The notes under the pieces: generated by a model
Databases searched by the model: none
Told to the model about the DNA's origin: nothing
Seen by the model: the letters and a program-made list of their open reading frames with translations, nothing else
Made by a program: the position numbers and the translations under genes
Source of the DNA: Sphingobacteriia bacterium
GTDB taxonomy: Bacteria > Bacteroidota > Bacteroidia > Bacteroidales > 4484-276
Length of the DNA: 37,989 nucleotides
Direction of reading: 5' to 3'
Assembly (NCBI GenBank): GCA_009930115.1
Contig: RZYY01000015.1
Coordinates: forward strand, 1 to 37,989
Part shown: positions 1 through 11,190 of the stretch, in pieces
Position numbering within the stretch: the first letter of the stretch is position 1
Layout of the letters: each line of letters opens with the position of its first letter

Positions 1-1856
1 TAGAGGAAACAGTTTTTTCTTCCCTCGAAATGGGTAAAGTAGAACAGGTTTCCTTCGTTGTAAAAATAGGCTTTTGATCCGTTTTTCCTGCATTCAAGGT
101 AAGTGTAGTTGTACATATCAGCCTTCACGTCCCAATTGACCTGCTTTATTTTGCCTCCATTTTCGCTCATTTCAAAAGTAATTGTTTGCCCTGGGATAAA
201 AGAAAATGCTTTGGCGAGGGAGTCATTTTTTACCACATTGGTCACTACCTGATCTTTTGCCGGCCGCTCGTAAGTTTTTAGCTCAAACCCGTTTTTGGTT
301 TTCAACAGATAATTGGCTATCGGAAAATCAATGGTTTTTGCACCGATAAAGGGGTCGGACTGAATTTGAAAATGAAGGTGGGGCACCGGAGAACGCCCGG
401 AGTTTCCACTGTAAGCAATCACTTCGCCCCTTTTCACATAGGCCCCTTTGAAAGTCTTGATACTGCCCGGTTTCAGGTGGCTCACCTTTGAATAGATATT
501 TTCGGTATGTTTGATCACAATGGCATTCCCCCAATTATTTCCAAGGTTCATTTCACCAATAGTGTTATCAGGAACACCATCGCGGATTTCCTGCACCATA
601 CCATCGGCTGGTGCCAGCACAGGTTTCCCGTAACAGTAATAATCATTTACCGTATAACCATTATCCGAAAAAACTTTCCCATCTTCACCTGCAATTTCAA
701 AATCCCATGCATGGCGCCACTCTTCCTTGTGTGTATGTTCGCCGTTATGCCCCTGGGTTACTGTCCATTCGTCGAGGAAGGGCAGGATGATGTGAATGAT
801 TGCTTTGGTATCGAATCTCGATTTGTAGTTGTGCTGAGAATAAAGATTCCGCTCAGGTGAAAACCGTTGCACAACCACCAGTTCAGGAATGTAAAAATGA
901 CGTTCCCGCAATTTCAGCGCATAAAGGAAAATCAGGACAACTACATTGAATGCCAGGGAATAAATGGGTAATTCAATCAAATCGAAAAAAACACTTGATG
1001 AGCTGATGATGATAGCTGTTATAGGAGTGAGCAGTATCACCCACAAAAAAGCCCAACGCGAGGGCACGATGTAAAATCCCCCGAGACCGATGGCCGTAAA
1101 AATGAAATTGAAACCGATGTAACTGTAACTTAAGTCGGTAAGATCGGCACCGAGTGCCATATAAAAAAACCAGGCTGAAAAAAATCCGGTGAGTGACAGC
1201 AGAAACGCAATCCGGGAATAAATCAGCAAACCGATGGCTATCAGGATTCCGGCCAGCAGGTTATACTGAAAAAAAATGGCTGCCAGCGATTTGAAATAAA
1301 CAAGGATAGAGTTGTGTACCGGAAGATCGTTGACCCAGTAATAGAGGTTAACCATCTGCATGCCGCCATATCTGTATATTTCTGTAAGGATAAATAAGCC
1401 ACGGTTGCTGGAGGTAAGTACTGAAAACTCTCTGGATGCAAGACTTACCATCCATATTCCAAACAGAAACGGTAAACTCATGTAAGGCAGACCATATTTC
1501 CAGAATATACCCTGGAACCAGATAGTAAGGAAAAAGGTAAACAGGGAGGCAAAGATCAAAATGGTAAAAAATTCAATGCCCGGCTGATAAAACAGTCCCA
1601 TACCCAATCCGACCATCAGGCTGTTGAAACCATAATATCCCTGTGTTACATGGTTTTTGTTAAAGCCGATAAGGATGGCAGCCAGGTTGGTTGTGGTTAC
1701 TGCAATCAGTCCGCTGAATCCGGAATTCCAATCGAAAAAAGAAACGAGAATAAGGATAAACGCAAAGATTTTTTGTTTGGAAAAAAAAACCTGCGAGTAG
1801 CTGAAGAGTATTCCATCCAGGAATGCTATTGCACTTTTTTCGATTCTTTGAATCAT
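1..1856 (-). CDS. Urea transporter-like membrane protein fused to M23 metallopeptidase (partial, C-terminus beyond window)
   Basis: An uninterrupted reading frame enters at the left edge and starts at the ATG at 1856; a TAA lies in frame four codons upstream. Residues 1 to about 290 are a chain of hydrophobic segments carrying the urea-transporter signature (GYYGFNSLMVGLGMG near residue 70, matching the GLYGFNGxLVG motif of the UT family, and a second weaker inverted copy around SYIGFNFIFTAIGLGG). After more membrane segments the protein becomes soluble and contains an M23/LytM zinc site: H382 and D385 in a RHAWDFE motif, then H493 and H495 in HLHF. The M23 domain would sit on the periplasmic side and cleave or bind peptidoglycan cross-links. 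What follows the M23 domain is a beta-rich tail cut by the window. The fusion partner of a urea channel with a cell-wall peptidase is unusual; substrate and coupling are unknown. Confidence 0.82.
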   Translation of the reverse strand, partial: MIQRIEKSAIAFLDGILFSYSQVFFSKQKIFAFILILVSFFDWNSGFSGLIAVTTTNLAAILIGFNKNHVTQGYYGFNSLMVGLGMGLFYQPGIEFFTILIFASLFTFFLTIWFQGIFWKYGLPYMSLPFLFGIWMVSLASREFSVLTSSNRGLFILTEIYRYGGMQMVNLYYWVNDLPVHNSILVYFKSLAAIFFQYNLLAGILIAIGLLIYSRIAFLLSLTGFFSAWFFYMALGADLTDLSYSYIGFNFIFTAIGLGGFYIVPSRWAFLWVILLTPITAIIISSSSVFFDLIELPIYSLAFNVVVLIFLYALKLRERHFYIPELVVVQRFSPERNLYSQHNYKSRFDTKAIIHIILPFLDEWTVTQGHNGEHTHKEEWRHAWDFEIAGEDGKVFSDNGYTVNDYYCYGKPVLAPADGMVQEIRDGVPDNTIGEMNLGNNWGNAIVIKHTENIYSKVSHLKPGSIKTFKGAYVKRGEVIAYSGNSGRSPVPHLHFQIQSDPFIGAKTIDFPIANYLLKTKNGFELKTYERPAKDQVVTNVVKNDSLAKAFSFIPGQTITFEMSENGGKIKQVNWDVKADMYNYTYLECRKNGSKAYFYNEGNLFYFTHFEGRKNCFL

Positions 1857-1962: not shown

Positions 1963-2808
1963 TTACTCAATAATCAGTTTTTTAGAGATGATATTATCAT
2001 TAATAATGAATTGAACGAGATATAACCCAGGTTTCAGTTCAGAAATGTCTAAAGTTGTTTGTTTGGAATTTAATTCAAATGACTTCATCCTGATTCCATT
2101 CAATGAGAATACAGCACCTTCTACAATATCATCTGAGTCTGTCACAATTTTTAAGGTTGTTTTTGCAGGGTTTGGAAAAATCGAAATCCTATCAATCAAT
2201 TCCAAATTTTCAACTGAAACTATAATCATTTGAGTGCCCCATTCTTCCTCTCCCTTTTTGAAATAGACCAGTTCATCGCTAGATTCGGATTGGCTTTCCC
2301 AACTATAAAAATACCTTGATGCCACTCCACATCCATTTACATATTTCATTGTATTAACATAATTATCGTTTAAAAAGTCAATGAAATTGATTTTTCTCCC
2401 GTTGTAGAGGTCAGGATCTTTATAAACTGAATCAACAAAACCATTGTGAATCGGATTATTGAGATTCGAATATGAGACCGTATCAACATAGAATTTTTGT
2501 ATTAATACAGGATCAGGGTAATAAAATGCTTTGTAAGCAACATTTCTTACATAATAAACTGTTGTATTATTTGCAGAATAGTATTTGTCAAGGATCTTAA
2601 TATTTGTAATTGACCACATGCCTGAATACCCATTAATATTACCAGCATTCAGATAGTAGTGAAAAACATCATTTACTTCATAATCATAAATCTCACCAAC
2701 TGTGGATATATCCTGAGAAATCAAACCATTAGGTTTTAAGAAAAGAACAATTAGCATTAAAATACTGATACAGAATGTCTTTAACCGTAATTTGAAATTT
2801 GCTTTCAT
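1963..2808 (-). CDS. Secreted T9SS-sorted protein of unknown function
   Basis: The 281-residue product begins with a basic and then hydrophobic signal peptide (about residues 1-31, ending near GLISQ). Its C-terminal 75 residues form a type A type IX secretion sorting domain: IFPNPAKTTLKI, a central SLNGIRMKSF strand, ISELKPGLYLVQF and a final basic KKLIIE. Such proteins cross the inner membrane by Sec and are passed through the outer membrane by the gliding/PorSS machine, where the tail is removed. The 180-residue middle is rich in Tyr, Asn and Asp and I do not recognise it. The gene stands 106 bases upstream of the urea-transporter fusion on the same strand, so they could share a transcript, but no promoter box fully matching TAnnTTTG is seen upstream. 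Confidence 0.8.
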   Translation of the reverse strand: MKANFKLRLKTFCISILMLIVLFLKPNGLISQDISTVGEIYDYEVNDVFHYYLNAGNINGYSGMWSITNIKILDKYYSANNTTVYYVRNVAYKAFYYPDPVLIQKFYVDTVSYSNLNNPIHNGFVDSVYKDPDLYNGRKINFIDFLNDNYVNTMKYVNGCGVASRYFYSWESQSESSDELVYFKKGEEEWGTQMIIVSVENLELIDRISIFPNPAKTTLKIVTDSDDIVEGAVFSLNGIRMKSFELNSKQTTLDISELKPGLYLVQFIINDNIISKKLIIE

Positions 2809-3148: not shown

Positions 3149-4609
3149 TCATCTCTCAGCCTTTCCATTATGGTTTAAAATTTGCCAGTGACCGCCAAGT
3201 TTTGGTCCTACACGTTTTAATATGCCTTTCATTTTTAGGTTTGCAAGATAATTTTCAACCGTACGTGGTGTTTTGTTTATTTTTTCAGCAATTTGTTCCG
3301 CTGTGATATTCGGATTGTTCTGTATCTCAACCAAAATTTGTAATTCAATCGTTCCGAAATCGTTCCGAAATCGTTCCGAAATCGTTCCGAAATCATTCCG
3401 AAATTTTTCAAAAACTTCCTGCTTATCTTTTTTTGAATTTTGCTGTGAATTTATCAGGTCTTTTTCTTTATCACTGATGGAGTCATAAGAAAAATCCGCC
3501 GCTCCTTTTTCCTGTTCAAAAACCAAAGCAAAGCCTGCGCCCATTCCTTTATAAAATGGTTCGGGTAGCCCGGCGCCAGTGCAGTATTTTAGCATATCTT
3601 TTACGCCGCGTCCCCAATTTTCGATGTATCCGGCGCGAAAAAACACACGGGCAATATCAGGATTTGCCGGAACAGAACTGTGTTTTTGCTTAAGGGTTTC
3701 CAGTGTCCATCCTTCGGGCAAGCGGCCGCTATTGTAAATCATAAGCCAGCGATCGTAAACACTTATTTGTACCGGCACATTGCTGCTGTAATCTTTGTGA
3801 ATAATGGCGTTTAATACAGCTTCGCGAAGTGCCTTTTCAGGATAATCGTATGTTTCGGTGCGGGTAATACCTTCATAAGCAATATTGGCTTTCATGTATT
3901 TCGTGGTAAGCAAATCCATGGTTTTTTCAACCTGCTCAATCAGGCTTCCCTCAATAACATCCTGATACAACAAATCGGAATGCGTGCGAAAGAACCCAAT
4001 CTTTACGAATGCGCCTGTAATCAGTCTTTCGGCATTTTTACCGAAACATAATACGGCCGCTCTCAGCAGGTGATCCTTTTCGGTAAGGTTAAGTACTTCA
4101 AGCAGTTCTTTATTGCTTGCATTCAAATCTTCATCGGGAATTCGATTGCTTCTTTGTGCTTTTTTACGGAAAATAGTAAAGGCATTTTCTGATAAATCAT
4201 CCATCGAAAAGTTTTCGGCAATCACGCCATCCCATTTTTTACCTCGCTTTGCAAGTAAAAATTGTTCGAGTGCACTGCCGCTGAGGTCTTGTATGGTACT
4301 GCCCGAACGATAATAAAAATGGCCATGATATGACACAGGGTTTTTGGATGGATCCACAACTATTTCAATGTAGTTTTTCCTATTTTCTGTTTTATGGTTG
4401 ATTTGAGGAAACAAACCAAAAATATCACGGATTTTATTTGGCAGGTCGTCCAACAGCTTTTTATGATTATCAATGCCTATGACATCGCCTTGATCATCGA
4501 GTCCTATAAAAAGCTTCCCGTCCTGTGCATTGGCAAATGCACAGATTGATCTCAGGCACTCATCTTTCCATATCATCTTAAATTCAGTATGTTGATTTTC
4601 AACCATCAT
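3149..4609 (-). CDS. AlbA_2 / HATPase_c_4 / winged-helix transcriptional regulator (RecG-like family)
   Basis: The 486-residue product has the order typical of the 'putative DNA-binding, ATP-dependent' regulators of Bacteroidetes. Residues 1-125 are an AlbA_2 (Schlafen-like) domain (ENQHTEFK, ICAFANAQDGKLFIGLDD, YYRSGSTIQDLS). Residues 258-340 are a GHKL-like HATPase_c_4 domain (ALREAVLNAIIHKDY, then IYNSGRLP and GYIENWGRGVKDML). Residues 422-478 are a winged helix (ITAEQIAEKINKTPRTVENYL, KRVGPKLGGHWQIL). Between the last two lies a linker, residues 403-421, with FRNDFGTI occurring twice, made by five 11-bp DNA repeats. Because 11 is not a multiple of 3, unit gain or loss would change frame. 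The start is the first of two consecutive ATGs. Members of this family are thought to act as regulators or in defence-like loci; the target is unknown. A remnant of a relative lies just downstream. Confidence 0.85.
   Translation of the reverse strand: MMVENQHTEFKMIWKDECLRSICAFANAQDGKLFIGLDDQGDVIGIDNHKKLLDDLPNKIRDIFGLFPQINHKTENRKNYIEIVVDPSKNPVSYHGHFYYRSGSTIQDLSGSALEQFLLAKRGKKWDGVIAENFSMDDLSENAFTIFRKKAQRSNRIPDEDLNASNKELLEVLNLTEKDHLLRAAVLCFGKNAERLITGAFVKIGFFRTHSDLLYQDVIEGSLIEQVEKTMDLLTTKYMKANIAYEGITRTETYDYPEKALREAVLNAIIHKDYSSNVPVQISVYDRWLMIYNSGRLPEGWTLETLKQKHSSVPANPDIARVFFRAGYIENWGRGVKDMLKYCTGAGLPEPFYKGMGAGFALVFEQEKGAADFSYDSISDKEKDLINSQQNSKKDKQEVFEKFRNDFGTISERFRNDFGTIELQILVEIQNNPNITAEQIAEKINKTPRTVENYLANLKMKGILKRVGPKLGGHWQILNHNGKAER
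3349..3403. repeat. Five-copy 11-bp tandem repeat inside the regulator gene
   Basis: Units on the plus strand: TCGTTCCGAAA at 3349-3359, 3360-3370, 3371-3381 and 3382-3392, all identical, and TCATTCCGAAA at 3393-3403 with one substitution. On the coding (minus) strand each three units (33 bp) give an 11-residue period, so the present array encodes FRNDFGTISERFRNDFGTI. One unit more or less moves the downstream winged-helix domain out of frame. In one alternative frame a TGA follows immediately (at about 3346-3348), in the other a TAA follows after about 24 codons. Confidence 0.95.
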
Positions 4610-4682: not shown

Positions 4683-6041
4683 CTACAACTCGAACTTTCT
4701 GAGGTGCTCCGGTGTTTTTTCCATCTGATCGAACACGGCCATAGTTTCGTTTTGACGGATCACGTGAGCTTTCCCTTCCAGGTCAATCAGCACAATGTTT
4801 GGCCTCAGGTTGATAAATTGCATCCACTGCGTCATGTTGTATGCACCAACATGATGAATAACAAAATGATCACCTTTGTTGAGGAGGGGCAGCACGGCGT
4901 TTTCGCGAATCACGTCAATATTCATACAAAGAGGCCCATACATGGTGGTTTCCTCGGTATATTGCGAAAACTCCTGGGCCGGCGTGATTTTGTGATCGTA
5001 CCAGAAGGAAGTGAACAACAGATTGATACCTATATCCACTATAGTTGTTCTTTTGCCGGTTGAAGATCTTTTATTCGAAATTACCGTTCCGAGCAGAAAT
5101 CCGGCATCATCGATAAGTGCACGGCCGGTTTCAAGAATCAGTAATGGAAGATCGTCGGGCGGATATTCAGCGTTAAGCAGGGCGGATGCAATTTCTTCGG
5201 CATAATCATCAAATGAGGGAGTGGTATCCATGCCTGGCAAGTATGCTCCTTTTAATGTGTTGCGCGAGGCAAACCCCCCGCCCAGATCAATATATTTCAC
5301 CTGGTGGTCGTATTTTCTTTTCAGCCCGAGAGCCAGATCTGTCAGTTTCAACGCAGCAATACCATAGGCCCTGGTGCTCATGATAAATGTTCCGATATGG
5401 CAGTGCAACCCTACCAGTTCCATTTTCCCTGAAGCCATAATTTTATTTAGTGCATCCCATGCCTGACCGTTTTCATAATTAAAGCCAAACCGATCCCAGA
5501 TAGGAAAAATACCGGTGTCCATGTTCACTCTGATGGCCACACGGGGTCTTTTGTTCAGTTTGGAAGTCAGCTCGATGATCGTATAGAGTTCGTCAAGGTG
5601 ATCAATGTGAATGAGGGAGTCGTTTACAATGGCTTTTGTAAGGTCGCTGACCGTTTTGTCGGGGCCGTTAAAAATGATCTTCCGGGGGTCTACACCGTTT
5701 TTAACCGCTTTGTCGTATTCAAAACCTGAAACCACTTCGGCCCATGCGCCCTCCTGGTGGTAAATATTGCATACTGCATCCAGGTAATTGGTTTTATAAG
5801 ACCAGGCAAACTGAACTTTAGGATACCTCATGGTAAAAGCTTTTTGAGCTTTATGAAAAGTGTTGCGAACGGTTTTCTCGGAAATCACAAATACCGGGGA
5901 TTTATAATTTTCGATCAGGGATTTTACCAATACTCCGTCAATATTGGTTTTTGGTGTACGTTCAATACGTGCACCGAACTTATTTGGCATTTCTGTTTCC
6001 AGTCGTTTAATGACAGGCCGCTCATATCTTAATTTTTCCAT
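4683..6041 (-). CDS. PLP-dependent fold-III decarboxylase of the LysA/ornithine decarboxylase family, in RRE/ATP-grasp cluster
   Basis: The 452-residue product shows an alanine-racemase-like TIM barrel followed by the C-terminal beta domain of group IV decarboxylases. Visible landmarks are the PLP lysine K83 in WSYKTNYL, HCHIGT at 213-218, the phosphate-binding glycine loop DLGGGF at 252-257, ETGR at 304-307, and the active-site cysteine C372 in GPLCMNID, with the later GAYNM. All residues expected for catalysis are present, so it is probably active. It carries a roughly 45-residue N-terminal extension and lies 32 bases downstream of the ATP-grasp gene, with no other lysine-pathway gene nearby, so I do not call it lysA. 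The closest functional parallel is BtrK, a LysA-like enzyme that decarboxylates an amino acid tethered to a carrier by an ATP-grasp ligase. A free amino-acid substrate remains possible. Confidence 0.82.
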   Translation of the reverse strand: MEKLRYERPVIKRLETEMPNKFGARIERTPKTNIDGVLVKSLIENYKSPVFVISEKTVRNTFHKAQKAFTMRYPKVQFAWSYKTNYLDAVCNIYHQEGAWAEVVSGFEYDKAVKNGVDPRKIIFNGPDKTVSDLTKAIVNDSLIHIDHLDELYTIIELTSKLNKRPRVAIRVNMDTGIFPIWDRFGFNYENGQAWDALNKIMASGKMELVGLHCHIGTFIMSTRAYGIAALKLTDLALGLKRKYDHQVKYIDLGGGFASRNTLKGAYLPGMDTTPSFDDYAEEIASALLNAEYPPDDLPLLILETGRALIDDAGFLLGTVISNKRSSTGKRTTIVDIGINLLFTSFWYDHKITPAQEFSQYTEETTMYGPLCMNIDVIRENAVLPLLNKGDHFVIHHVGAYNMTQWMQFINLRPNIVLIDLEGKAHVIRQNETMAVFDQMEKTPEHLRKFEL

Positions 6042-6073
6042 GTAAATATTTTATTTCTGAATTTGTTTTGAGA

Positions 6074-7123
6074 TTAAAGTTCTCCTGTTGTAGAAATTTG
6101 TTGAAATTCTTCAATGTCAACAATCATATCCCAGGCATAGCGTACAAACATTTTGCCTACTTTATATTCGGTAAATGGCTTTACTTCTTCGCCAAGTGCA
6201 AGTCGAACAAGAGTTTCGGGGATATTTTGGCCGGCTCCCACAGCAAGATAAATCCATGCCGGCATACGAGGGTTAATTTCGAGAAGATAAAACTCGTTTT
6301 GTTTATCCTTCATCAACTCCAGTTCAAAACCTCCGCGCCATTTGGTCTGGCTGAGAAACTGACCGGTAAGTTCCAGCATTCGGTAATCGGAAATGGATAC
6401 CCCGCCCCAGGCTTTCCCTTTGTCAGTGATGTATTGCTTACGCATGGGAATGGCTGCAATGGTATTACCTTTCCCGTCGCCAAGTCCGGTTACATTGAAT
6501 TCACTACCATGTACAAATTCCTGGATAATCACAGGTGTCCCCCATTTTGCGGTAATCTTGTTGAAATATGTTTTTACCTGGTCATCATTGTAAGCAACAT
6601 AAGCTTCGTAAAATTTGCCTTTGACCAGCACAGGGTATTCAAAATCGTGAGAAAGTTTAAGTGCTGAATGCAGATCGTGATAGGATTTACTTTTAGGTAC
6701 CTTTATTCCATACTTTTTGCCAAACTCATCCAGGTTAACCTTGTGCCTTTCTTCAAACTGGGCAAGGGTGGGTAAAAAAGTGTGTATTCCCATATCTGCA
6801 AGTGTTTTTTCCAAACGAATAAAAGGATACAGTTCGGCATCAAAGTTAGGAATGAGCACATCAATTTTTTCGTTATTATGAATGAATTCAATCCTTTCGA
6901 GAATCGCATCAGTACCAGATGAAGGGTAGGGGATAAGATAGGATTTGTCAACAAGATCATGCATAAATATCCCGGGTTCCAGCGATTCATAGCCAAGTCC
7001 TATAATTCTGCAATCAAACGATTGAGCTTCTTTCAATCCTCTGATGACTGCAACACCCGGTCCGGGACTGTCAATTGCGTTCAAACCGGTAACTGCAATG
7101 GTAAGCTTTCTTTTTTCAGTCAT
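6074..7123 (-). CDS. ATP-grasp ligase, in RRE/decarboxylase cluster
   Basis: The 349-residue product has a short Rossmann-like N-domain (LTIAVTGLNAIDSPGPGVAVIRGL) followed by an ATP-grasp fold: a lysine strand FEYPVLVKGK at 161-170, the hinge VIIQEFVHG at 198-206 that would hold the adenine, and the metal-binding end FYLLEINPR at 278-286. The organisation resembles carbamoyl-phosphate-synthase-type and biosynthetic amino-acid ligases, which form an acyl phosphate and attack it with an amine or thiol. Its ATG lies inside the 3' end of the PqqD-like gene (8-base overlap), so translation is probably coupled. The substrate is not evident from sequence. Nothing looks truncated or mutated. Confidence 0.85.
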   Translation of the reverse strand: MTEKRKLTIAVTGLNAIDSPGPGVAVIRGLKEAQSFDCRIIGLGYESLEPGIFMHDLVDKSYLIPYPSSGTDAILERIEFIHNNEKIDVLIPNFDAELYPFIRLEKTLADMGIHTFLPTLAQFEERHKVNLDEFGKKYGIKVPKSKSYHDLHSALKLSHDFEYPVLVKGKFYEAYVAYNDDQVKTYFNKITAKWGTPVIIQEFVHGSEFNVTGLGDGKGNTIAAIPMRKQYITDKGKAWGGVSISDYRMLELTGQFLSQTKWRGGFELELMKDKQNEFYLLEINPRMPAWIYLAVGAGQNIPETLVRLALGEEVKPFTEYKVGKMFVRYAWDMIVDIEEFQQISTTGEL

Positions 7124-7361
7124 TTTCCACTAATGAAAAGTTATTCAACAAGCCGAGAAAATCTTCAAAATCTTTTTCGAAAGTATTTTTTTCGACAAAA
7201 TATTTTTCAATAGTAGTTGTGATGATTTCTTCCTGTGATTTTCCTTCTTTGAGTCCATTGATAATCATCGCACCCATTGGATTTACCGTAAACGATTCGC
7301 CGGTATCCGGATTGAAAATCAGCCCTGAGGCACTTACTGCCACATTCTTTTTTATTCTCAT
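7116..7361 (-). CDS. PqqD-like peptide-binding protein (RiPP recognition element)
   Basis: The 81-residue product matches the PqqD winged-helix pattern: an N-terminal beta hairpin VAVSASGLIFNPDTGESFTV, then NPMGAMIINGLKEGKSQEEI, and a final helical pair DFEDFLGLLNNFSLV. PqqD-type domains bind leader regions of precursor peptides and present them to modifying enzymes. The frame is open further upstream (to 7511), but that part lies inside the preceding gene; the ATG at 7361 gives exactly one domain and leaves 28 bases after the upstream stop. It overlaps the ATP-grasp start by 8 bases. No radical-SAM enzyme is present, so this is not a PQQ locus. Confidence 0.82.
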   Translation of the reverse strand: MRIKKNVAVSASGLIFNPDTGESFTVNPMGAMIINGLKEGKSQEEIITTTIEKYFVEKNTFEKDFEDFLGLLNNFSLVEND

Positions 7362-8214: not shown

Positions 8215-10338
8215 TTAGTAACAATTTGAAAAAATTATGGTTGCTGTATCTTTCAGATTTAACAGGTATGCTTTTCCTGGTGAGAGGTGGGTTAATGTGG
8301 CGATTTGCTTTTCGGGCCAATACACTCTCCATCCTGCTAGCTCAACAATGATGTTGATCTTATCGATAAAATTCTGATTCAGCGAATTTATGGGCATTTC
8401 ACAGGAACTCAGCACGGGAAGCAAATGCCATCCGGTTTCGTAGGTTTTACTTATGTTTGAAAGCGAGGAACCTCTGAAACTTAGGACAGCCGGGCTGGTC
8501 ATTTTTATAGAATAACCCTGGAAGGGGTCAAAAAAATCAATGGTATGAATACTCGCAGCAGGGTAAATTGTTCCTGAGTCACCAATCATTATTTCCATAG
8601 AGTTTATTATGAATTGCAAAACGGAATCAATTTGTGCATTTTCGGGAAGAATAAAGCAGGAAAGACTATTCCATCCTTTTCTGAGCACAGCATCAAAACC
8701 GGCATTAATCATAGTACTTACAGATTGTACAAGAACCGGAGCACGATCTGAGTTTTCATACATATTTTTGAAACGGTTGATATCATCAGAAGTATAACTG
8801 AACATATTGTCCAGCCATTTATCGTTTACAGTCTGATAAAATACATTTACAACAATTTCAATTTCTTCAAAATAATTATTTAAAGGAACATGATAACTGA
8901 TTTTGTCAGAACCACATCCCTCAATTCCGTTTTGTTTGTTGAAATCAGGATCAGTTGCTGCAAGTCCCTCAATTTTTGTTGTATCATAGCTTGGGTGTGC
9001 TGTGGTAAATCCTTCAGGCGGAATCCGATTGTCCTTTAAAGTCTGGTAAGCACGCTCCAAAACGGTGGTAACATTACCTTCAACATCACCCATCACCATT
9101 TCATAGATCTGGACTTCATCTTCGCTGTTAATGGTATTAAAATGCGGTTCAAAATCAGTGTTTTCAGCTATTAAATTATGATGATCATCTGATCTTCCAC
9201 TATGAAAAATAGTATCACCTGTATTTGTTCTGGCAATAAGTTCGATGAATGCTCTCCGGCTTGGAAATCCGGAAGGAAATTTGTGTCCTGCCTTGTTAGT
9301 CAGGAGTACATTCAAATAAAGTGTATCATTGGTTCGGCCGGTTTCTTCGACGGAAAGGCTGAGTGCCTGTCGGGTAAGCATATTCGAAGACCGGCTTATA
9401 GTGGAATCGAAGTTGGATGTCAAAGCAGTTATGCCAAGTTGCACGATGTTTTCTTTGAAAATTTTACCCATAAAAATATTTGCTCCTGCAAATTGATGCA
9501 TACCGAAAGGTAAGCGTGGTTGGAGCCAGGGTGGAACAGTGCTGATTTTCACAGAATCGTTGATGCGCGGAACGTGGCAACTTTGGCAGCTTTTATTTTC
9601 CGTGGGAAAAACAGAATTTTTCCATTCATGATAAATGGCCTGCTCCACAAATTTTTCACCTGTCGCAACGCCATTGAGGTCAACCGGGTCGGTTAATAAA
9701 GTATGACAGGAAGCACATAATTCAGAATTGTTAATATGGTTGCTATGCACAGGAGTATATCCTGTATTAAAAAGCATAGGATTGATGAATGGATTGGAAA
9801 AAGGACCCCAGATAATTTTATTGGTACCAATCGAAAAAGTTCCCGAAAAATTCCCACTTGATTCGGGAGTAATTTGATGACATACAGTACATTGTACACC
9901 ATCAAGTGCCAGGGGGTCATTTTTCATTTCAGCAATAGTGTAATAATCTTTTTGTGCATAATGGGCATTGATGTTACCCACCGGTGCATGACAGGTTGTG
10001 CATACATTTTCCAATGCTTCTTGGTGTGAAGGATTTACCAGTCCTTCATGGCTTACCTTGGCCTGCCACAGTGGATCTTTTGCTGAGTTTCCCATCATTG
10101 TTGACCGCCAGTCGTTGGCAATGCCAATTGGTGCACCTTGTCCGTTGGTCATCGAATTGTGACAAACAGCACAATTTCCCGATCCTGCGAATAAATTGTT
10201 ATAACCTGTTGGCAAAGGATTATTTCTGACCGGGATAATCATTTTAGCAGGTAAATGATAATTGTCAAACCGGAATGCCAGTAGCAAAAGAGTTATTAAA
10301 GATATCAGGAGAATGAAGAATTGCCGTGTGAGGTTCAT
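8215..10338 (-). CDS. Secreted pentaheme cytochrome c with C-terminal duplicated surface-type domain
   Basis: The 707-residue product starts with a signal/anchor helix (MNLTRQFFILLISLITLLLLAF). Five CxxCH haem sites follow: CAVCH (about residue 56), CTTCH (113), CTVCH (150), CASCH (208) and CQSCH (251). Next comes AGHKFPSGFPSRRAF, a motif common after haem clusters in periplasmic multihaem cytochromes. The last 180 residues hold two diverged copies of a GW-x-YP-x-GYS/KAY module (KGWNSLSCF with IYPAASIHT and GYSIKM; then TGWHLLPVL with VYWPEKQIAT and GKAYLLNL). A 13-codon longer frame to 10377 exists, but a -7 box covers that ATG, so I use 10338. Likely role: electron transfer in the periplasm or at the surface; donor and acceptor unknown. 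It ends just before the promoter of the T9SS/RRE operon. Confidence 0.85.
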   Translation of the reverse strand: MNLTRQFFILLISLITLLLLAFRFDNYHLPAKMIIPVRNNPLPTGYNNLFAGSGNCAVCHNSMTNGQGAPIGIANDWRSTMMGNSAKDPLWQAKVSHEGLVNPSHQEALENVCTTCHAPVGNINAHYAQKDYYTIAEMKNDPLALDGVQCTVCHQITPESSGNFSGTFSIGTNKIIWGPFSNPFINPMLFNTGYTPVHSNHINNSELCASCHTLLTDPVDLNGVATGEKFVEQAIYHEWKNSVFPTENKSCQSCHVPRINDSVKISTVPPWLQPRLPFGMHQFAGANIFMGKIFKENIVQLGITALTSNFDSTISRSSNMLTRQALSLSVEETGRTNDTLYLNVLLTNKAGHKFPSGFPSRRAFIELIARTNTGDTIFHSGRSDDHHNLIAENTDFEPHFNTINSEDEVQIYEMVMGDVEGNVTTVLERAYQTLKDNRIPPEGFTTAHPSYDTTKIEGLAATDPDFNKQNGIEGCGSDKISYHVPLNNYFEEIEIVVNVFYQTVNDKWLDNMFSYTSDDINRFKNMYENSDRAPVLVQSVSTMINAGFDAVLRKGWNSLSCFILPENAQIDSVLQFIINSMEIMIGDSGTIYPAASIHTIDFFDPFQGYSIKMTSPAVLSFRGSSLSNISKTYETGWHLLPVLSSCEMPINSLNQNFIDKINIIVELAGWRVYWPEKQIATLTHLSPGKAYLLNLKDTATIIFSNCY

Positions 10339-10374
10339 AAAAAACAATGAAATATTTTGGCTTAAAAATGATGG

Positions 10375-10382
10375 CAAAAGTA
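10375..10382 (-). promoter_or_regulatory. -7 promoter box that decides the cytochrome start
   Basis: The minus strand reads TACTTTTG, a full match to TAnnTTTG. It overlaps the upstream ATG at 10377, so RNA would begin around 10368 and could only encode the start at 10338, which is also where the signal peptide begins. Confidence 0.5.
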
Positions 10383-10498
10383 AAGTGTGATACTCTGGCT
10401 GGTGTTATAAAATTCCATGAATCTTTTATAAGATTTTCGGCTGGCTGGATTTTCAGCAGGGAAATTGTTTTTTTAATCTTTCTTTTTCAGCTTCCAGC

Positions 10499-11044
10499 TT
10501 AAATTTCAAGATTCTTTTTGTAGTCGCTTACTGTAATGCCGGTAACAGTTCTGAACTGAGAAGAAAGATACTGGACGCTGCTGTACCCCATCATATAGGC
10601 GATTTCGCTTAGCGTAAGATCCCTGCTGCGAATCAGTTCTTTTACTTTTTCAATTTTTTGTAAAATGATAAACTTTTCGAGGGTCATCTGCTCATATTTT
10701 GAGAAAATGGAAGAAATATACTGATACGAAAGATTGAATCGTTCAACCAGATAGTCTGAATTACGCACCATCGCATTGTAGGTGCTGTATTGAACAAGGT
10801 TAATAATGGCGCTTTTTATCTGTTGTGCCAACTGTTCTTCTTTGTTCGACAAAAGCTCAAACCCTTCTTCCCTGAGCATTTCAGCAATCTGGTCAAGTGA
10901 TGAAACTTCAGGGTCAAAGTCAACTTCTGCTTCTCCGAGGTCAATGCGGATAATAATTACTCCGGCATCACGTAAAATCCTTTTCACGAGTTTTACGCAA
11001 CACTGACACAACATATTTTTGATGATGAGTTTTTGGCGAATCAT
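10499..11044 (-). CDS. AraC-family regulator with N-terminal HMA-like metal-binding domain
   Basis: The 181-residue product begins with a small ferredoxin-like domain (IIKNMLCQCCVKLVKRIL, then VSSLDQIAEMLREEGFELL) like heavy-metal-associated domains, whose MxCxxC loop is here M11-L-C13-Q-C15-C16. A helical linker leads to an AraC/XylS double helix-turn-helix in the C-terminal half (SYQYISSIFSKYEQMTLEKF and LTLSEIAYMMGYSSVQYLSS, ending TGITVSDYKK). The frame stays open to 11176, but the ATG at 11044 begins the domain exactly. It is transcribed away from polA with 146 bases between. The cysteines suggest metal or thiol sensing; proteins of this architecture are frequent in Bacteroidetes but little characterised. 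No obvious metal-resistance gene is adjacent. Confidence 0.82.
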   Translation of the reverse strand: MIRQKLIIKNMLCQCCVKLVKRILRDAGVIIIRIDLGEAEVDFDPEVSSLDQIAEMLREEGFELLSNKEEQLAQQIKSAIINLVQYSTYNAMVRNSDYLVERFNLSYQYISSIFSKYEQMTLEKFIILQKIEKVKELIRSRDLTLSEIAYMMGYSSVQYLSSQFRTVTGITVSDYKKNLEI

Positions 11045-11136
11045 TATGCTGTTAAAAAGATCAAAGTACTGACAAAAATAGTTTAAAAATTTCCAGTGTA
11101 CATTTATCTTCCTGATCAAAGAGCGTTCCTTATCAG

Positions 11137-11169
11137 TTTGAAGTCCCATTGCATTTTTCTGTATTTTTG
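11137..11169 (+). promoter_or_regulatory. Promoter of polA
   Basis: A -33 TTTG (11137-11140), a 21-base spacer and a -7 TATTTTTG (11162-11169) match the Bacteroidetes sigma-ABfr consensus TTTG-N19-21-TAnnTTTG. The polA ATG follows 21 bases later. Confidence 0.6.
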
Positions 11170-11190
11170 TTGACATAAAAAAGAAAATTC

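Follow-up and report, generated by a model that had tools for sequence, protein, structure and literature searches.

In the Bacteroidota, a PqqD-like RRE, an ATP-grasp ligase and a PLP-dependent decarboxylase are encoded by a three-gene unit whose association lies far beyond chance and which forms the head of a six-gene operon. Sequence comparison strongly supports a conserved operon in which a leader-like tag is matched to the RRE pocket, and the peptide recognised by the RRE is most likely the N-terminal tag of the decarboxylase itself. It seems reasonably probable that the RRE docks the ATP-grasp enzyme onto the tagged decarboxylase, where a ligated amino acid would be decarboxylated in place and the product handed to a trans-envelope route. 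A previous sequence-only reading of the window (the whole stretch of 37,989 nucleotides analysed here) had rightly singled out a real and unusual unit, but had assigned the RRE to a hidden peptide; it is best read as an RRE for the decarboxylase tag. The unit and its predicted recognition elements lie in the window as follows.

7116-7361, minus strand: PqqD-like RRE (81 aa; PF05402)
7281-7283, minus strand: PqqD N27, predicted YxxP-binding residue
7170-7172, minus strand: PqqD D64, predicted YxxP-binding residue
7158-7160, minus strand: PqqD F68, predicted YxxP-binding residue
6074-7123, minus strand: ATP-grasp ligase (349 aa) with a CPS-like/PylC-like fold (Pfam and AlphaFold2 model)
4683-6041, minus strand: alanine-racemase-fold PLP decarboxylase (452 aa), N-citrylornithine-decarboxylase-like (Pfam, NCBIfam and fold)
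5967-6041, minus strand: leader-like N-terminal tag of the decarboxylase, residues 1-25, MEKLRYERPVIKRLETEMPNKFGAR (conservation, predicted disorder and covariation with PqqD D64)
6009-6026, minus strand: tag motif YERPVI
5979-5981, minus strand: tag K21, invariant
5973-5975, minus strand: tag G23

The gene coordinates bear out the layout first read from the sequence, three minus-strand genes with an 8-base overlap between PqqD and ATP-grasp and a 32-base gap between ATP-grasp and decarboxylase. The PqqD-like protein matches PF05402 (PqqD) at 38.1 bits against a gathering cut-off of 23.4, the ATP-grasp enzyme matches ATPgrasp_Ter (44.2 bits, cut-off 29.1) and the decarboxylase scores 99.8 bits with Orn_Arg_deC_N and 48.5 with Orn_DAP_Arg_deC; no NCBIfam model exceeded its own cut-off for any of the three proteins. 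The contig of the window comes from a draft genome, the relatives and homologue matches of which are Bacteroidales and other Bacteroidota. Adjacency in one genome only had been named in the sequence-only reading as grounds for abandoning it; instead, of 80 distinct Bacteroidota decarboxylase loci that have 1.6 kb or more of sequence upstream, 78 keep the order PqqD, ATP-grasp, decarboxylase, and this order is identical at every locus read from other families and classes of Bacteroidota, which supports the proposal of one conserved, undescribed unit. The decarboxylase is present in 30 of the 59 relatives and, among 394 genomes sampled from Bacteroidota, in 35, or about 1 in 11 species. At the first of the two exceptions to the order (locus L091 of genome G037), PqqD and ATP-grasp lie on a separate contig from the decarboxylase, and both the tag and the PqqD Asp are retained despite this separation; at the second, the divergent locus L176, the tag is kept and no PqqD was detected beside the ligase. 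The titles and abstracts of the published work found on PqqD together with ATP-grasp do not appear to describe the operon, and we found no work joining PqqD, ATP-grasp, decarboxylase and Bacteroidetes. An apparent ATP-grasp/decarboxylase fusion at locus L007 (genome G005) was rejected as an assembly gap, marked by a run of X. In genome G521 (contigs C56 and C234) the decarboxylase and the ATP-grasp are both duplicated, on different contigs, and at locus L055 (842-1090, plus strand) a second, orphan PqqD-like gene, with no ATP-grasp of its own, lies about 5 kb upstream of the operon.

The start of the decarboxylase conforms to the consensus [YF]E[RKS]Px[ILV]KK..xxMPNKFG, which is found in all distinct decarboxylases of the family, down to about 45% identity. 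P9 and K21 do not vary among 135 sequences; E7 and G23 are each kept in 133, and residue 6 is Tyr in 116 and Phe in 19. The tag carries the YxxP leader motif of lasso peptides and fits the pattern [Y/W]xxPx[L/V/I/F/A]. The pattern [YFW]xxPx[ILVFA] occurs close to the N-terminus in 176 of the 178 decarboxylase ORFs; a stretch of 90 residues was scanned in these, since the listed frame of many of them includes an upstream extension. Of 1,229 other ORFs, 41 (3%) have the pattern in their first 25 residues. The AlphaFold2 model of the decarboxylase has a mean pLDDT of 86.9, with residues 1-25 below 50, and solved relatives align only from about residue 29 (closest match 7kh2), leaving the tag outside their folds. 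Conserved, predicted to be disordered and external to the fold, the tag looks like a partner-binding motif.

The RRE appears well suited to such a motif. The closest solved chain to the PqqD-like protein is TbiB1, a lasso-peptide RRE (E 1.5e-7), and discrete lasso RREs bind [Y/W]xxPx[L/V/I/F/A] (PMC13381572). In the LppB-leader crystal structure, N33 holds the kink at the motif proline; D70 of LppB hydrogen-bonds the leader Tyr, F74 touches the proline and lines a second pocket with M78 and L83, and the leader mutants Y-16A and P-13A bind LppB more weakly (PMC13381572). PqqD N27, D64, F68, L72 and L77 reproduce the spacing of LppB N33, D70, F74, M78 and L83 at a constant offset of 6, the mapping having been made by spacing; N27 is found in 133 of 135 sequences (the other two being gaps) and position 68 is Phe in 130 of 135. 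The PqqD-like protein thus belongs to the same fold family as the discrete lasso RREs (B1: TbiB1, TfuB1/FusB1) and LppB of the LPP RiPPs, and is predicted to share with them the recognition of [Y/W]xxPx[L/V/I] through the same contact residues, including Asp for Tyr. It differs from the lasso and LPP systems in that the motif is borne by an enzyme and not by a short precursor peptide, and in a conserved operon without B2 protease, lasso cyclase or HPr-type kinase; neither a B2 protease nor a lasso cyclase occurs among the conserved neighbour families, and the lasso B1 models score below their cut-offs (NF033530, 32.5 of 70 bits; NF033536, 22.5 of 80).

Tag and pocket also vary together. In the first 115 pairs, all 107 Tyr tags were accompanied by D64 and all 8 Phe tags by a different residue at that position (Fisher p 1.7e-12, without regard to relatedness). 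A targeted search for genomes with Phe tags enlarged the set to 134 usable pairs, three tags of which (YDKP, YTKP and FEPP) were read by eye. PqqD residue 64 is then Asp beside every Tyr tag (112) except for two Asn and one His, and beside Phe tags it is Tyr (14), Ser (4) or His (1), never Asp. With sequence weighting, none of the other 36,612 inter-protein column pairs scores as high as decarboxylase Y6 with PqqD D64, whether by corrected mutual information (0.436; next pair, 0.300) or by normalised mutual information (0.746; next pair, 0.477); the third pair by the former, decarboxylase residue 4 with PqqD K53, also falls where the N-terminal end of the binding site is expected. On the tree, the Tyr/Phe switch occurred about four or five times, and three of these events share their branch with the PqqD change; phylogenetically independent pairs number only two to four, none discordant, and are too few for a formal test. 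Taken with the pocket residues, this covariation gives good support to the idea that the PqqD-like RRE would bind the decarboxylase tag.

A small protein beside an ATP-grasp ligase is also the arrangement of LysW-type amino-group carrier systems. Unlike in those systems, the C-terminus of PqqD is variable across homologues and lacks a conserved Glu motif, so that PqqD as a LysW-like carrier was rejected and the earlier suggestion of an RRE replacing the carrier protein loses its support.

With regard to the chemistry, the closest NCBIfam model to the decarboxylase is that of N-citrylornithine decarboxylase (NF041039, 233.1 bits, below the cut-off of 500), and its nearest solved fold is 7kh2 (Z 44.1 over 399 residues, 31% identity). 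Against LysA (TIGR01048) it scores 206.9 bits, under the cut-off of 297.9, and its orthologues 203-237 bits. In alignments, the CE(S/T)GD loop of LysA reads CMNID here, with Met for Glu, and the arginine of LysA RP..LY is replaced by Thr, both as in N-citrylornithine decarboxylase. The altered residues are those with which LysA recognises the far end of diaminopimelate. Given this Met and Thr, the enzyme is probably not a free-diaminopimelate decarboxylase, and from its FslC-like active-site loop it would be expected to act on an amino acid in ligated and not in free form. It resembles FslC/FigC, SbnH and AcsE in being an alanine-racemase-fold decarboxylase, and the N-citrylornithine decarboxylase FslC/FigC in its CM..D loop and in the Thr for the LysA arginine, but it differs from FslC/FigC in scoring below the family cut-off, in having conserved neighbours without a siderophore (NIS) synthetase and in bearing the N-terminal tag. 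Members of the FslC/SbnH/AcsE/MccE/BtrK family take ligated or carrier-bound amino acids as substrates (PMC7857480), in keeping with a pathway in which ligation precedes decarboxylation. A larger, ligated substrate had already been anticipated by the sequence-only reading by analogy with BtrK, to which the enzyme is indeed related, N-citrylornithine decarboxylase being closer. The scheme proposed here likewise parallels butirosin BtrI/BtrJ/BtrK in that an ATP-grasp enzyme ligates first and a LysA relative then decarboxylates; unlike in butirosin biosynthesis, none of the conserved neighbours is an acyl carrier protein, the small protein being PqqD-like, and coupling seems to proceed via the RRE and the tag. 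The ATP-grasp model (AlphaFold2, pLDDT 91.6) has 2pn1 as its nearest solved fold (Z 28.7), and this predicted fold is generic and does not reveal the substrate.

In the mechanism that we favour, the PqqD-like protein would be a discrete RRE gripping the tag YxxPx[IL] as a lasso-type RRE grips its leader. Their genes overlap, so that PqqD and ATP-grasp are probably made together, and the RRE would thereby dock the ligase onto the decarboxylase; we infer, with modest support, that the RRE is held by the ATP-grasp enzyme and that the complex passes the ligated amino acid to the decarboxylase. The ligase would couple an amino acid, via its side chain, to a second molecule, and the decarboxylase would convert the ligated amino acid into an amine by removing its free alpha-carboxylate. 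This chemistry is inferred, as is the direction of transport. As a conjecture, the intermediate would not be released into the cytoplasm, and the product would pass to a trans-envelope route formed by a urea-transporter-like channel with an M23 domain, an outer-membrane barrel and a TPR protein.

The conservation of the tag beyond its YxxP motif admits another reading, which we regard as unlikely: the decarboxylase may be its own substrate, the RRE presenting the tag and the ATP-grasp enzyme loading an amino acid, e.g. through its gamma-carboxylate, on Lys21, the arm then swinging into the PLP site for decarboxylation in place. A ribosomally built aminoacyl-lysine arm would here take the place of the phosphopantetheine of BtrI. 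K21 (135/135) and G23 (133/135) do lie within the segment predicted to be disordered, and K21 stands 12 residues past the motif proline; in LppA the part of the leader past the RRE-bound stretch is suggested to meet the modifying enzyme (PMC13381572). The relative BtrK, moreover, decarboxylates a carrier-bound amino acid (PMC7857480). However, no release step is apparent, and the invariant Lys may merely contact the surface of the ATP-grasp enzyme or the decarboxylase.

The search for a precursor peptide bears on a third possibility, that of a RiPP pathway whose precursor has a gene of its own, the decarboxylase merely joining the same RRE complex through a similar motif. RiPP precursors can be unlinked and hypervariable. 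No short ORF is common to the loci around the operon (80 loci): the shared short ORFs recovered were mainly gene ends and antisense frames, and two clusters corresponded to the N-terminal starts of PqqD and the decarboxylase. The genome of the window has no second tag-bearing ORF, and other proteins of the 59 relatives gave only five weak matches to the tag (E at least 0.02). The ORF searches thus revealed neither an adjacent precursor nor one with a shared leader, one of which a RiPP cluster should have, though a precursor unrelated in sequence would escape them. Precursor peptides are the usual partners of RREs (PMC12710340), but in view of these searches we consider a separate precursor improbable. 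That no precursor peptide is visible had been noticed from the window alone; the amino acid had then been placed on the end of a peptide, the decarboxylase tag, most likely the peptide that the RRE binds, having gone unseen.

Chance juxtaposition of PqqD-like and ATP-grasp genes with an ordinary decarboxylase of free diaminopimelate, lysine or ornithine is very improbable, for although the LysA relationship is clear and no LysA above cut-off was found elsewhere in the genus of the window, the score and active-site residues given above are not those of LysA, 9 of 17 operon carriers have a separate LysA above cut-off, and neither the conserved gene order nor the covariation of tag and RRE would be explained. 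A partial LysA-like open frame at a contig edge in the draft genome of the window (G000:C163) may be contamination (draft contamination 8.87%).

An RRE for an enzyme-borne tag would put a familiar recognition module to a new use. The presence of an RRE is generally read as a sign of a peptide natural product; in this operon the same lock-and-key fit seems to join two metabolic enzymes. If this is true, genome mining based on RREs will have to reckon with leaders carried by enzymes, a testable function can be proposed for 'orphan' PqqD genes, and the tag would constitute a short, transferable docking element with a natural Tyr/Phe-Asp specificity switch.

Beyond the three genes that the sequence-only reading had correctly taken for an operon, it missed the remainder, a transporter fusion, a barrel and a TPR protein, and its statement that no protease lies nearby is contradicted by an M23-peptidase fusion in the window itself. 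Among the 57 loci with at least 7 kb of downstream sequence, a urea-transporter/M23-peptidase fusion is encoded downstream in 55, an outer-membrane-barrel-like protein of about 450-500 aa with N-terminal TPR, a secretion signal and a C-terminal Phe also in 55, and a secreted TPR protein in 54. In the relatives the fusion directly follows the decarboxylase as the fourth gene of the operon, and in the closest relative, of the same genus (genome G001, locus L208, with the fusion at 8935-11148 on the minus strand), all six genes are contiguous; the window has two unrelated genes between decarboxylase and fusion, and G001 has none.

3149-4609, minus strand: AlbA/RecG-like protein, between decarboxylase and transporter fusion
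1963-2808, minus strand: T9SS-tailed protein, between decarboxylase and transporter fusion
9-1856, minus strand: urea-transporter-like membrane domain fused to a periplasmic M23 (LytM) peptidase domain, its 3' part lost at the contig end

We found no description of a trans-envelope set composed of a transporter/M23 fusion, an outer-membrane TPR-barrel and a secreted TPR protein, and this part of the operon points to an undescribed product. Finally, the window encodes at 10499-11176 (minus strand) a protein that joins an HMA metal-binding domain to an AraC-type regulator; at 29 of the 80 loci a relative of this protein is encoded upstream of the operon.
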